From: Candidatus Zixiibacteriota bacterium
GTDB lineage: Bacteria; Zixibacteria; MSB-5A5; WJJR01
Length of the DNA stretch: 64,000 nucleotides
Direction: 5' to 3'
Assembly (NCBI GenBank): GCA_036397555.1
Contig: DASWIS010000008.1
Span: 372,001-436,000, forward strand
Positions within the stretch are counted from its first letter, which is position 1. Each line of letters begins with the position of its first letter. The notes under the pieces are model-generated. The model made no database searches. It saw nothing but the letters and a program-made list of their open reading frames with translations, and was not told the origin of the DNA. The position numbers and the translations under genes are program-made. Below, one piece after another: positions 33,301 through 38,926 of this stretch.

Positions 33301-34062
33301 TTACGGCTTCGCCGCACGTATGATGGCGTTGAATTGATCGGCATCCAGCGATGCTCCGCCGACCAACGCGCCATCGATGTCCGAATCGGACAACAGACCG
33401 GCGGCATTGTCCGGCTTCACCGAGCCGCCGTAGAGTATGCGTACCCGGGACGCCAAGTCTTTCGAGTGCTTCTGCCCGATCCAGCCGCGGATAAAGCCAT
33501 GTATCTCGGCGGCCTGCCGGACCGTTGCGACTTTTCCGGTACCGATCGCCCAGACCGGCTCGTATGCGATCGTTACGTTCTCCAGTGTCTGTGGTGTCAT
33601 ATCGGCTAAACTCTCTGCCAATTGTCGTTCAATCACCTCGTGCGTTTGTCCGGACTCACGCTCCGCCGATCGCTCGCCGACGCACACGATCGGTTTGAGT
33701 CCCGCCGACAGGGCCTTGTGCGTCTTGCGGTTGATGCCTTCGTCGGTCTCCCCAAAGAGCTGGCGCCGTTCGGAGTGACCCAAAATAACCATCCGGCACC
33801 CGGCGGTCAACAGCATGCGGGCCGACACCTCGCCGGTAAACGCCCCGGAATCGGCTTCGTGCATATTCTGGCCGCCCAGCAGGATGGCACTGCCCTTCAG
33901 CGCCTTGGCAGCAGCGCTCAGTGAGACGAATGGCGGAAAGACGGCAACGTCTATGTGCGGCCAGTCTGTTGACCGTGCCACCAATGCCGAACACAGCTCC
34001 CGCGTCCACGGGATATCACCATTCATCTTCCAATTGCCGGCAATGAGGGGGGTGCGCGTCAT
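33301..34062 (-). CDS. tpiA: triosephosphate isomerase
   Basis: Interconverts glyceraldehyde-3-phosphate and dihydroxyacetone phosphate. The 253-residue protein is of normal length, with Asn/Lys in IAGNWKMNG near the N-terminus, catalytic His in LGHSERRQLFGE and catalytic Glu in IAYEPVWAIGTGK. The phosphate-binding end ILYGGSVKPDNA and LVGGASL is present. It begins 3 bases after the pgk stop, so the two are translationally close, and it is followed by secG. Confidence 0.97.
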   Translation of the reverse strand: MTRTPLIAGNWKMNGDIPWTRELCSALVARSTDWPHIDVAVFPPFVSLSAAAKALKGSAILLGGQNMHEADSGAFTGEVSARMLLTAGCRMVILGHSERRQLFGETDEGINRKTHKALSAGLKPIVCVGERSAERESGQTHEVIERQLAESLADMTPQTLENVTIAYEPVWAIGTGKVATVRQAAEIHGFIRGWIGQKHSKDLASRVRILYGGSVKPDNAAGLLSDSDIDGALVGGASLDADQFNAIIRAAKP

Positions 34063-34065
34063 GTG

Positions 34066-35277
34066 TCAGTCGGCATCATCCAGTGCGGCCACACCGGGCA
34101 GGATCTTGCCCTCGATGAACTCTAATGAGGCCCCGCCGCCGGTGGAAACATGCGTAAAGGTGGGGGCGATTCCAAGCTGATGAATCGCGGCAACAGAGTC
34201 ACCGCCGCCGACAACCGTCGTCGCCCCGGCGCGCGATGCTCGGGCGATGGCCTCGCCGACGACTTTCGTCCCTGTTGCAAAGGCGACGGTCTCGAAGACC
34301 CCCATTGGTCCGTTCCAAAAAACGGTGCCACGTTCGTTCCCGAGCTTCTCAATGGATGCTTCAAACTGGTTCGCGGTTTTGGGACCGATGTCGAAACAGG
34401 CGAGGTCTCGCGGTATAGTGCGCACATCCACCGTAGTGATGGGCGGCGTCCCAGCCCTGTCGGCTCCGGCCATGCCGTCCACCGGCAATTGAAAATCGCA
34501 TCCGAGCTCACGAGCGCGTCGCAGAATACCGGCTGCCTGTTCGATCAAGTCCGATTCAACCAGCGACTGACCGACCTCGTGTCCTTCTGCCCTCAAGAAC
34601 GTAAACGCCATCCCGCCGCCGATCAGTAGTCCATCGGCCTTGTCGAGCAGATGACTGATGACTTCGAGTTTGCCGGATACTTTGGCGCCGCCCAGGACGG
34701 AGTAAAACGGCCGACGAGGATTCGACAGCAGACCTCCCAGATACTCCAGCTCCTTTTGCATCAGCAGCCCTGCGACACACGGTTTGAGATGGCGCGTCAC
34801 TCCGACCGTCGATGCATGGGCGCGATGAGCCGCACCGAAGGCATCGTTGACGTATATGTCACCCAAACGCGCCAAATCGCGCGAAAAAGCATCGTCGTTC
34901 TGTTCCTCTTCAGGGTGAAATCGCAGATTCTCCAGAAGGAGAATGTCCCCGTCGCTTAAGGACGCGGCGGCACGCTCGGCCTGACCGCCTGCACAATCCC
35001 GCGCGAATGACACCTTTGTTCCGAGCAGTTCTCCCAGTTTGGCTGCGACGGGCCACAGAGACATCTCCGCGAGGCGTTTCCCTTTCGGACGGCCGAGATG
35101 TGACATCAGAACCAGGTGCGCCCCCGCTTTGCTCAGTGCGCGAATGGTGGGAATCGCGGAGCGCACTCGCGCATCATCGGTGACGCGCCCGTCATCGATG
35201 GGGACATTGAAATCCACTCGCGCAAGAACGCGACGGCCCTTCACAGACGGCAGATCGGCAATCGTCTTTTTGGGCAT
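34066..35277 (-). CDS. pgk: phosphoglycerate kinase
   Basis: Transfers phosphate from 1,3-bisphosphoglycerate to ADP. ATG 35277 gives a 403-residue protein beginning MPKKTIADL, the natural N-terminus just ahead of the RVLARVDFNVP signature; an upstream in-frame start at 35304 only adds a basic leader. Other landmarks are SHLGRPKG, the substrate-binding GAAHRAHAS region, the hinge, the nucleotide segment GGAKVSGKLEV, and the C-terminal GGGDSVAAIHQLG and STGGGASLEFIEGK. It lies between gap and tpiA in the operon. Nothing unusual is seen. Confidence 0.97.
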   Translation of the reverse strand: MPKKTIADLPSVKGRRVLARVDFNVPIDDGRVTDDARVRSAIPTIRALSKAGAHLVLMSHLGRPKGKRLAEMSLWPVAAKLGELLGTKVSFARDCAGGQAERAAASLSDGDILLLENLRFHPEEEQNDDAFSRDLARLGDIYVNDAFGAAHRAHASTVGVTRHLKPCVAGLLMQKELEYLGGLLSNPRRPFYSVLGGAKVSGKLEVISHLLDKADGLLIGGGMAFTFLRAEGHEVGQSLVESDLIEQAAGILRRARELGCDFQLPVDGMAGADRAGTPPITTVDVRTIPRDLACFDIGPKTANQFEASIEKLGNERGTVFWNGPMGVFETVAFATGTKVVGEAIARASRAGATTVVGGGDSVAAIHQLGIAPTFTHVSTGGGASLEFIEGKILPGVAALDDAD

Positions 35278-35340
35278 GAACGAATCGGATCTTCGGCGCG
35301 TCAATCCGCGCCGTGAGACTGACCGGATGAAAAGTCTGAC

Positions 35341-36336
35341 TCAACTTTTCATGCGCGGCAGAAATTGGACGACGCGGTTGGAGAATCCCCACTCGTTGTC
35401 GTACCACGACAGCACTTTGACGAGGTTTCCCTGCACGCGAGTCTCCGCCGCATCCAGGATGGACGAGTGCGGGTCGCCGACGACATCAATCGAGACAATC
35501 GGGTCTTCGCAGTAGGCGAGAATACCCTTCATCGGTCCGTCTGCGGCCCTCTTCATGGCGGCGTTGACCGAATTCTTCGATGCACTTTTGCCGACAATGC
35601 AGGTCAGATCGACCAGCGAGCCATCGGGAACCGGTGCCCGTACGGCCAGACCGTCCATCTTGCCAACCAGTTGCGGAATCACCAATCCAATGGCGCGCGC
35701 AGCGCCCGTCGACGTCGGAATGAGCGACATCGCTGCTGCGCGCGCGCGCCGCAGGTCCTTGTGCGGCAGATCGAGAATCTGCTGGTCGTTGGTGTACGCG
35801 TGCACGGTCGTCATAAACCCCGACTCGATGCCAAACTCGTCGTCGATCACTTTGGCGATCGGCGCCAGGCAATTCGTCGTGCACGATCCGATCGAGATGA
35901 CTTTCTGGTTGGCGGGATTGTAGGTGTGATCGTTGACACCGATCACAAACGTTCCATCGGCATCTCCGGACGGAGCCGAAATCAGCACGCTCGCGGCACC
36001 GGCGGTCAGGTGTGCGGCGGCTTTCTCCCGCTGAGTGAACAGCCCCGTCGATTCGACCACGACGTCGACCTTTTTTTCTCGCCACGGCAATTTCGATGGG
36101 TCACGCTCGGCGGTGACAGTGAATCGCTTGTCTCCAACGGCAATACCATCGCTCTCAACATGCACGTCGACCGAAAGCCGTCCGTGGACCGAGTCATACT
36201 TGAGCAGGTGTGCCAACGTCCGTGCATCGGTGATATCGTTGACCGCGACGACATCGATGCCCGGATGTGATATTGCCGCCCGGTAGACCAGTCGCCCGAT
36301 CCGTCCAAACCCGTTGATGCCGACCCTGATGCTCAT
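35341..36336 (-). CDS. gap: glyceraldehyde-3-phosphate dehydrogenase
   Basis: NAD-dependent oxidation and phosphorylation of glyceraldehyde-3-phosphate. The 331-residue protein has the Rossmann start INGFGRIGR, an acidic AVNDITD segment at the NAD ribose site (so NAD rather than NADP is favoured), and the catalytic Cys in SIGSCTTNCLAP with the usual downstream His. The C-terminal SWYDNEWGFSNR is intact. It lies 20 bp after the second barrel-like gene and 63 bp before pgk, all on the same strand. Confidence 0.97.
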   Translation of the reverse strand: MSIRVGINGFGRIGRLVYRAAISHPGIDVVAVNDITDARTLAHLLKYDSVHGRLSVDVHVESDGIAVGDKRFTVTAERDPSKLPWREKKVDVVVESTGLFTQREKAAAHLTAGAASVLISAPSGDADGTFVIGVNDHTYNPANQKVISIGSCTTNCLAPIAKVIDDEFGIESGFMTTVHAYTNDQQILDLPHKDLRRARAAAMSLIPTSTGAARAIGLVIPQLVGKMDGLAVRAPVPDGSLVDLTCIVGKSASKNSVNAAMKRAADGPMKGILAYCEDPIVSIDVVGDPHSSILDAAETRVQGNLVKVLSWYDNEWGFSNRVVQFLPRMKS

Positions 36337-36356: not shown

Positions 36357-37076
36357 TCAGCGGTAGATATAGGCGGCGCCGAAGAGAACCTGTACGCCGG
36401 AATAGTCGCGCGCACCCAGCACGTCCTTGTCGAACCGGGCGTGCTGGTATTTGACCGTGCCCAGCAGCATCACGCTGGGCCCGAGCACGATATCGACTCC
36501 GCCGCCCGCGTAGTAACCGAATTCGAAGTGCGTTTTCGAGGCGTCCACTCCGACAACGAAGTCATTGACGCGCGTAAATTCAAGCCGCTCCGTCAAGATC
36601 AGGCCGGATCCGCCGGCGCGCAGGGTCGGCTGGACTCGTAGTGTCTTCTTCGATGCCAATGGTGTCGCGACGATCCCCAGCCCAAGCGGGTAGAGCGTGG
36701 CGTTGCCGAAGTCGGAAAGTTGTGTCTCCGGATCGGTAATTTGAAACTCGCCACGGCTGATTGCCCCGGCGTTGATATCGAGATTGAACGCTCCGAACAA
36801 ATGGGGGAGATAGAAGAGTTCCAGATGAAAGCCGGTTTTGTTGCCTCGCAACCGGGCATTGCCCGTCGTGATATCGGTGCCCAGTTCATTGGCAAACCAC
36901 GGCCCGAGTTGGCCGCCCGCCGCGCTCTTGTGCCATAGGCCGGGCTCCGGCGGTGCGTGCGCGGCCTCCGGAGGGTGTCGCAGGGGCTGAGCGTCAGCCG
37001 TCGTGCACAATCTGGGCATCCCCGGCACGATGCCGGCCGTAACAAGCAACAGTCCTATGGCCGCTCGCATGCTCAT
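36357..37076 (-). CDS. exported barrel-like protein of unknown function in glycolytic operon
   Basis: I do not recognise a named family. From ATG 37076 (MSMRAAIG) the 239-residue product has a signal peptide (AIGLLLVTAGIVPG) and then alternating polar and hydrophobic strands with aromatic residues, such as GFHLELFYLPHLFGAFNLDI and VMLLGTVKYQHARFD. It ends LFGAAYIYR, which resembles the last strands of an outer-membrane beta barrel. The start lies 13 bases after the stop of the neighbouring barrel-like gene, and its end is 20 bases from gap. Position suggests co-expression with glycolysis, but no transport or enzymatic role can be claimed. Confidence 0.65.
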   Translation of the reverse strand: MSMRAAIGLLLVTAGIVPGMPRLCTTADAQPLRHPPEAAHAPPEPGLWHKSAAGGQLGPWFANELGTDITTGNARLRGNKTGFHLELFYLPHLFGAFNLDINAGAISRGEFQITDPETQLSDFGNATLYPLGLGIVATPLASKKTLRVQPTLRAGGSGLILTERLEFTRVNDFVVGVDASKTHFEFGYYAGGGVDIVLGPSVMLLGTVKYQHARFDKDVLGARDYSGVQVLFGAAYIYR

Positions 37077-37089
37077 CCGGCAGTGTCCG

Positions 37090-37842
37090 TCATCGGGAGT
37101 TCCAGAGCAGACCGACCGAAACCCAGACCGCACTCAAATCGACCTCGGCGTCCTGGGCGTAGTTGAACTTGCTGTACCGTGCCGATGCATCGACGGTCAC
37201 GGCGTATTTGGGCCTGAAGTAAAACTCGCCGCCGACGGCAAGAAGTGCTCCGGGTGCTCCCTTAGAGCCCGGGCCATAAAACCCCGAGACATCAGGGTGA
37301 ATATCCTCGCTGACTGATTCGTTGGCGAAGATCAGGGACAAGGCTGCTCGGGCGTAGATATTGTGGGGCTTTTGCCGTGGGCCGATGTCTTTCACCGCTC
37401 GTACGCCGATGGAGATCGGAATGAATACGACCTGTCCTTGTCCCAACAATGGTCTGAGCGTGTCGCTCTCTGTCTTGCCGTACACCTGGACATCCTGACG
37501 ATTCGCCCATCCGAGAGCCGCTTCCGCCCACCACATTCCGCCCAAATGCATGTACCCGTAGAGCTCGACGAACGGTCGAATCTCTGCGGGCTCGGAGAAC
37601 TCGGCATCAACTTCGACCTCCAGCGTGTCGCGGAATGGGTCTCCGGGCTCTCCGCTGACGACGCGCACATCCAGCCCTCGTCCCAGTACGCCGTCGACGC
37701 TCGGCTGCGGCCAGATTCCGCCGCGCAAACCGAAACGGTCTCCGCGTCGCGGCTGACCTTGCGCCCCGGCTTGTGTCGGACCCATTGCCATCAAGACGGC
37801 CAGCGCGCTCAGCCCCATACGGACAAACTGCCATCGACGCAT
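37090..37842 (-). CDS. exported barrel-like protein of unknown function next to phosphofructokinase
   Basis: A 250-residue exported protein from ATG 37842 with signal peptide (MGLSALAVLMAMGPTQAGAQ). The mature part shows repeated beta-strand patterns (FVELYGYMHLGGMWWAEAAL, IYARAALSLIFA, YAVTVDASARYSKFNYA) and a final strand VWVSVGLLW, as in small outer-membrane barrels of the OmpA/OmpW size class. A TTG at 37878 would overlap pfkA, but it lacks support. The gene lies 28 bases after pfkA and 13 bases before a second barrel-like gene; the two could be diverged duplicates or partners. Function unknown. Confidence 0.65.
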   Translation of the reverse strand: MRRWQFVRMGLSALAVLMAMGPTQAGAQGQPRRGDRFGLRGGIWPQPSVDGVLGRGLDVRVVSGEPGDPFRDTLEVEVDAEFSEPAEIRPFVELYGYMHLGGMWWAEAALGWANRQDVQVYGKTESDTLRPLLGQGQVVFIPISIGVRAVKDIGPRQKPHNIYARAALSLIFANESVSEDIHPDVSGFYGPGSKGAPGALLAVGGEFYFRPKYAVTVDASARYSKFNYAQDAEVDLSAVWVSVGLLWNSR

Positions 37843-37870
37843 GCGCGCTGGTCGCGTCAGTGAGGAGATG

Positions 37871-38926
37871 TCAACCAAAGAAGACCGCCGCTTCGTCGAA
37901 GAGCTCGCGTGGAACCGTCTTCGTTCCTTTCGCGACCTCGGCGAGTGAGACTTCGGTAATTCGATTGCCCTGGTAGCTGACCATGTACCCGAATCGTCCT
38001 TCTTCGATCAATCGAACGGCGTGAAGCCCGAAACGCGTGCACAGGTACCGGTCGAAGGCCGTCGGCGAGCCGCCGCGCTGGACATGGCCCAGCATCACCT
38101 CGCGCGACTCGATTCCGGTCCGCTCTTCGATTTCCTGTGCCAATGCCCGCCCGATTCCGCCCAACTTGACGTGTCCGAACGCGTCCTTGCCCTCATCCCG
38201 CGTGACGACATCTTCGTTGGCACGCGGCTCCTTCGATGTGATCTGCGCGCCTTCGGCGACAACGACGATCGAGAAGTCCTTGCCGCCGGCGTGGCGCTTC
38301 TTCAACAGCGAACAGATGTCGTCCATGTCAAAGGGGACCTCCGGCAACAGAATGATATCGGCGCCCCCGGCAATGCCGCCCTCCAGGGCAATCCACCCGG
38401 AGTGTCGTCCCATCACTTCGACGACCATCACGCGTTTGTGCGACTCGCCGGTAGTGCGGACACGGTCGATGGCCTCGACAACTGTGTTCAATGCCGTATC
38501 AAACCCAAAGCAATAGTCGGTGCCCAACAGATCGTTATCGATAGTCTTGGGAACGCCGACCAGGTTGATCCCCCGTCCAGCGAAATTGTAAGCGACCCCC
38601 ATGGTATCCTCGCCGCCGATGGCGACGATTGCATCCAGTCCCAAACTCTTGATCCGCTGCATGGCGGCATTCATCTGTTGATCGTCGTTGGTCGGATTCG
38701 TGCGGGATGTCTTGAGAATCGTCCCGCCCAAGCCGATAATGCCGGACACCTCCGGGAGATTGACCGGTCGCGTCGAACCCTCCGGCAGTAAACCCTTCCA
38801 TCCTTCGAGGATTCCGGTCACACGCCACCCGTTGTGCTTGATCGCCTTGACCACGACCGCGCGGATGACCGCATTGAGTCCCGGGCAGTCACCCCCGCCG
38901 GTCAGAATCCCGATGTGATGAGCCAA
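37871..38926 (-). CDS. pfkA: 6-phosphofructokinase with pyrophosphate-type active-site residues
   Basis: Phosphorylates fructose-6-phosphate. The 351-residue protein is a complete PfkA-family enzyme: GGGDCPGLNAVIR at the phosphoryl-donor site, GGEDTMG at 104-110, PKTIDND at 126-132 with the catalytic Asp, and MGRHSGWIAL further on. At the two positions that separate donors in this family, ATP enzymes such as E. coli PfkA have Gly104, whereas this protein has Asp107 and Lys127. The Asp plus Lys pair is the signature of pyrophosphate-dependent enzymes such as the Amycolatopsis one. The start is TTG 38926 with a strong GGAGGG ribosome-binding site. It is the first gene of the glycolytic operon. 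Donor specificity is inferred, not shown. Confidence 0.93.
   Translation of the reverse strand: MAHHIGILTGGGDCPGLNAVIRAVVVKAIKHNGWRVTGILEGWKGLLPEGSTRPVNLPEVSGIIGLGGTILKTSRTNPTNDDQQMNAAMQRIKSLGLDAIVAIGGEDTMGVAYNFAGRGINLVGVPKTIDNDLLGTDYCFGFDTALNTVVEAIDRVRTTGESHKRVMVVEVMGRHSGWIALEGGIAGGADIILLPEVPFDMDDICSLLKKRHAGGKDFSIVVVAEGAQITSKEPRANEDVVTRDEGKDAFGHVKLGGIGRALAQEIEERTGIESREVMLGHVQRGGSPTAFDRYLCTRFGLHAVRLIEEGRFGYMVSYQGNRITEVSLAEVAKGTKTVPRELFDEAAVFFG

Follow-up and report, generated by a model that had tools for sequence, protein, structure and literature searches.

Does the 6-phosphofructokinase (PFK) encoded in this window, the whole stretch of 64,000 nucleotides that was analyzed, take its phosphoryl group from ATP or from pyrophosphate (PPi)? 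The pfk ORF (37871–38926, minus strand) is complete, with a TTG start codon preceded by GGAGG, and encodes a 351-aa protein that matches the Pfam PFK family (PF00365) with 360.9 bits (gathering score 30.9, E = 5.6e-108). Downstream of pfk lie two ORFs (36357–37878) and then gap, pgk and tpi, in that order. The features considered are listed below.

37871..38926, minus strand: pfkA-family phosphofructokinase, TIGR02483 'PFK_mixed' group, predicted to be PPi-dependent (family models, tree)
38606..38608, minus strand: codon GAT of Asp107, equivalent to E. coli Gly104, at the ATP alpha-phosphate site (alignment; role from PMC12203962 and PMC10339645)
38594..38596, minus strand: Val111, bulky, equivalent to E. 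coli Gly108, an adenine/ribose contact (alignment)
38546..38548, minus strand: codon AAG of Lys127, equivalent to E. coli Gly124 and common to Gly-type relatives (alignment)
37090..37878, minus strand: ORF of unknown family, 262 aa, between pfk and gap, with conserved synteny; matches neither Pfam nor NCBIfam models
36357..37133, minus strand: ORF of unknown family, 258 aa, with conserved synteny; matches neither Pfam nor NCBIfam models
35341..36336, minus strand: gap, type I glyceraldehyde-3-phosphate dehydrogenase (TIGR01534)
34066..35304, minus strand: pgk, phosphoglycerate kinase (match to PRK13962, in its Pgk half)
33301..34062, minus strand: tpi, triosephosphate isomerase (TIGR00419)

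Family models place the protein more readily than they name its donor. The pfk product meets the cut-off of TIGR02483 (PFK_mixed; 450.3 versus 430.55), fails that of TIGR02482, the equivalog model for bacterial ATP-PFK (315.9 versus 371.35), and also passes the broad NCBIfam model PRK03202, 'ATP-dependent 6-phosphofructokinase'. Because PRK03202 is passed and TIGR02482 is failed, automatic annotation may mislabel the donor, and an 'ATP-dependent' label taken from the broad model is unsafe for this protein. The warning of the earlier note against a plain ATP-dependent annotation was therefore fair, and heeding it would correct a likely misannotation in an uncultured phylum. The TIGR02483 match is no guide to the donor either, since that cut-off is passed by L115, a paralog from the phylum with Gly at the position of Asp107 (Gly-type). 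More generally, the donor is considered hard to classify from sequence, and monophyletic groups of PFKs mix both donors (PMC12203962).

The donor pocket was examined by alignment with E. coli K-12 PfkA (locus L070, taken from the genome record; mature numbering). Asp107 and Lys127 fall on E. coli Gly104 and Gly124, exactly as the earlier note had placed them, while Glu106 corresponds to Asp103 and Thr76 to Phe73. The catalytic general base Asp127 is kept as Asp130, and so are the fructose 6-phosphate (F6P)-site residues Arg162, Arg243, His249 and Arg252. Among the E. coli effector-site residues, R21, R154 and K213 are retained and R25, R54, D59, E187 (to D) and K214 are changed; the enzyme may lack allosteric control. 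A segment longer by about 30 residues follows the equivalent of E. coli Glu222.

Across 110 family sequences, the position of Asp107 is occupied by Asp in 73 and by Gly in 37. Lys127, in contrast, does not vary with the residue at 107: it is present in all 73 Asp-type sequences and in 36/36 Gly-type relatives (E. coli excepted), so that within this family Asp is informative and the Asp plus Lys pair is not. Of the pair that had been put forward as the mark of a PPi enzyme, the Asp half thus holds, as it separates the two types, and the Lys half is nondiagnostic. Lys124 (E. coli numbering) was accordingly rejected as a donor marker, in line with published comparisons in which Lys alone does not indicate the donor (PMC12203962, PMC10339645). 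Neither the C-terminal insertion nor bulk at position 108 was kept as a marker, since Gly-type relatives have the former too and most of them have a residue other than Gly at the Val111 position. Thr at the position of Phe73, an ATP-contacting residue in E. coli, is found in 73/73 Asp-type sequences and in 0/37 of the Gly type. In PPi-PFKs, an Asp located at the ATP alpha-phosphate site keeps ATP out and fixes the register in which PPi binds (PMC12203962, PMC10339645). Two Asp-type PFKs of the set (L112 and L113) read GGVD and IDNN, so that neither E. coli Asp103 nor Asp129 is conserved in them, and their own activity is doubtful.

To place the protein among its relatives, 117 homologous ORFs were gathered, mostly from 132 genomes of the phylum, with others from contigs named as Acidobacteria, Aminicenantes, Corynebacterium, Rhodococcus and Helarchaeota. 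The tree was built from 110 of them, a set that does not include the Amycolatopsis methanolica and Streptomyces coelicolor enzymes or other characterized group III or Asp-type sequences. On the first tree, the Asp/Gly label required two changes, compared to a mean of about 31 for shuffled labels; Asp at position 107 is clustered far beyond chance. With the columns of the donor pocket taken out, along with the most divergent rows, 57/57 Asp-type rows fell within a group of 60, whose three Gly-type rows were two sister genomes and a Rhodococcus sequence on a long branch. The grouping favors the prediction of the earlier note, the 73 Asp-type relatives standing apart from nearly all Gly-type enzymes with the pocket columns in or out. 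The window PFK sits with its own family in a fully supported set, and the base of the Asp group has moderate support only (83/75). The PFK of L003 was grouped as identical with that of L032, which belongs to the same family as the window PFK.

These data bear directly on the reading in which the enzyme uses ATP (or GTP or ADP) and merely tolerates Asp at 104. Such an enzyme would have precedents, in that ATP enzymes exist in the PFK_mixed family and cyanobacterial PFK-A enzymes use ADP (PMC11609450); the Lys motif is not decisive (PMC12203962), and the pass under the 'ATP-dependent' PRK03202 model also agrees with it. Against this, position 104 is Gly in E. coli, in the entire predicted ATP-type paralog group and in all actinobacterial relatives, as it is in all aligned ATP-PFKs of a published comparison (PMC10339645), and no Asp-type sequence was found inside a Gly-type clade in trees of up to 110 sequences. 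We regard an ATP-, GTP- or ADP-using enzyme as highly improbable.

Two further arrangements were seen among the relatives. In genomes G008 and G009, the only PFK listed (L110 and L111) carries GGEG, with Gly at 104, but branches within the Asp-type clade from a long stem (0.71), and may represent a natural return to ATP. At L042, L148, L054 and L096, an Asp-type pfk lies near a Gly-type or E. coli-like (GGDGS, P[GA]SIDND) pfk, such that predicted ATP-type and PPi-type genes appear side by side.

Gene content was then read from the host genome, whose ratings are 100% for completeness and 0.06% for contamination. The window PFK is its sole PF00365 protein. The search for a second pfk that the earlier note had advised thus returned none of the PfkA type, and the two PfkB-type matches, an HldE-like heptose kinase and a PfkB-family sugar kinase, both scored below the cut-off and were rejected as a second PFK. 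Pyruvate kinase (PF00224) is absent from the host genome, although the same search was positive in 14/14 control genomes, and pyruvate phosphate dikinase (PPDK) is present (TIGR01828, 1338.5 bits). Throughout the phylum, pyruvate kinase is absent from 77 of the 132 genomes; the link between this absence and genomes with Asp-type PFK only is weak (Fisher p = 0.07, with paralog types partly assigned by score), and it was set aside as a correlate for the phylum.

The genome also encodes a membrane pyrophosphatase (PPase). The only soluble PPase homolog found, outside the window at G000:C8:242053-242340 (minus strand; L090), is a family I remnant: a TGA interrupts its reading frame, and its second half is weak and degraded. 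The TGA itself could be a sequencing error, but the decay extends to the far half. No DHHA2 match indicative of a family II PPase was found in the host genome, and PF00719 (family I PPase) had no match in any of the six other genomes of the host's family. Judged from these sequences, the host genome appears to encode no active soluble PPase.

Given Asp107, the tree, the missing pyruvate kinase, PPDK, the membrane PPase and the broken soluble PPase, PPi dependence of the window PFK is well supported, and we consider it likely, with considerable confidence. With this genome content behind it, the prediction is stronger than Asp107 by itself would make it.

Reversibility is a separate matter. The earlier note had proposed that glycolysis would be reversible at this step, and suggested a search for fructose-1,6-bisphosphatase (FBPase). 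A GlpX-type class II FBPase was found (394.2 bits versus 259.3), and the host is thus not a case in which a reversible PFK replaces a missing FBPase: gluconeogenesis could proceed without PFK running backwards, and PFK need not be the gluconeogenic enzyme. The claim is weakened accordingly, and both reversibility and ATP saving at the PFK step would follow by analogy with known PPi-PFKs. PPDK is able to run in the gluconeogenic direction. As to PPi dependence itself, the GlpX enzyme is neutral, and FBPase alongside PPi-PFK occurs in other organisms too (PMC12203962). Four other genomes of the set, G096 (88% complete), G097, G121 and G123, combine an Asp-type PFK with the lack of any strong FBPase match in the classes PF00316, PF03320 and PF01950; they are candidates for a PPi-PFK acting in both directions, a role that is posed as an open question in PMC12203962.

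The gene neighborhood speaks to the sugar substrate. The order pfk–ORF–ORF is kept among relatives in the family, with the whole cluster to tpi present at L002 and the cluster as far as gap at L003, where the contig ends; in the more distant L041, pfk adjoins gap and pgk. This conserved gap–pgk–tpi neighborhood ties the window PFK to glycolysis. The alternatives are an enzyme with dual or relaxed donor use (PPi plus polyphosphate or tripolyphosphate, or PPi plus ATP) or one acting mainly on sedoheptulose 7-phosphate (S7P) in the pentose phosphate pathway; with regard to the acceptor, the glycolytic cluster suggests that F6P is the main substrate. Models for such behavior are the Thermotoga maritima Pfp, which accepts PPi, PPPi and polyP, the Methylococcus Pfp, whose Km for S7P is far below that for F6P (PMC10339645), and the clostridial PPi-PFKs, which use S7P (PMC12203962). 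For the window PFK we hold these alternatives to be very unlikely.

The favored reading is a PPi-dependent enzyme acting on F6P. In the mechanism we propose, pfk would encode a short (351 aa) PPi-dependent 6-phosphofructokinase of the EC 2.7.1.90 type in the mixed-substrate group, serving as the organism's glycolytic PFK beside gap–pgk–tpi. Asp107 would occupy the ATP alpha-phosphate site, so that PPi would bind where the beta and gamma phosphates of ATP otherwise lie and phosphorylate F6P with Asp130 as the general base. The PPi would come from biosynthesis and, because the soluble PPase gene is broken, would not be quickly destroyed; this pool would be coupled to an ion gradient by the membrane PPase and to phosphoenolpyruvate and pyruvate by PPDK. 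More tentatively, glycolysis could be tied to PPi at both ends, with PPi-PFK as the sole PFK, PPDK in place of pyruvate kinase and the loss of soluble PPase leaving PPi homeostasis wholly dependent on PFK and the membrane PPase. The assignment of the window PFK as PPi-dependent would also predict a PPi-linked energy economy in the phylum. With Asp-type-only genomes, genomes with both types and one lineage with an apparent Asp-to-Gly reversion, the phylum offers a natural comparison in which PFK donor switching becomes testable among close relatives. A literature search on PFK in Zixibacteria returned nothing specific, and we know of no assayed enzyme from the clade of the window PFK.

Among known systems, the window PFK may be compared to the Gly-type paralog in other members of the phylum (for example, L115 and L116; TIGR02483 family for L115), with which it shares Lys at 124 and approximately 50% identity. 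That paralog carries GGDG instead of GGED, is predicted to be ATP-type and is missing from the host genome. E. coli PfkA, which is ATP-dependent, belongs to the same family and has the F6P-site residues and base Asp127 in common with the window PFK, whereas its Gly104, Gly124, Gly108 and Phe73 are replaced by Asp, Lys, Val and Thr. The mixed-substrate PFK group III (TIGR02483/IPR012829) presumably includes both the PPi-PFK of A. methanolica and the ATP-PFK of S. coelicolor; the window PFK passes its cut-off, is of the same length class and has Lys124 and the catalytic Asp, and differs from the group as a whole in having Asp at 104, as expected of PPi members, and in coming from an uncultured lineage. 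At the level of the pathway, the comparison is with the PPi-linked glycolysis of Clostridium (Acetivibrio) thermocellum, an organism that to our knowledge lacks pyruvate kinase. The gene sets are alike, with a PPi-PFK (predicted for the host), PPDK, a membrane PPase and no soluble PPase in each (PMC8863071, PMC7657619, PMC12203962). C. thermocellum uses PPi for PFK and PPDK (PMC8863071) and is without soluble PPase (PMC7657619); in contrast to the host, where the mixed-group enzyme stands alone, it encodes in addition a PfkA that uses ATP or GTP (PMC10339645). PPi-linked sugar pathways are known from elsewhere, and the present genome, from an uncultured lineage, fits this kind of system.
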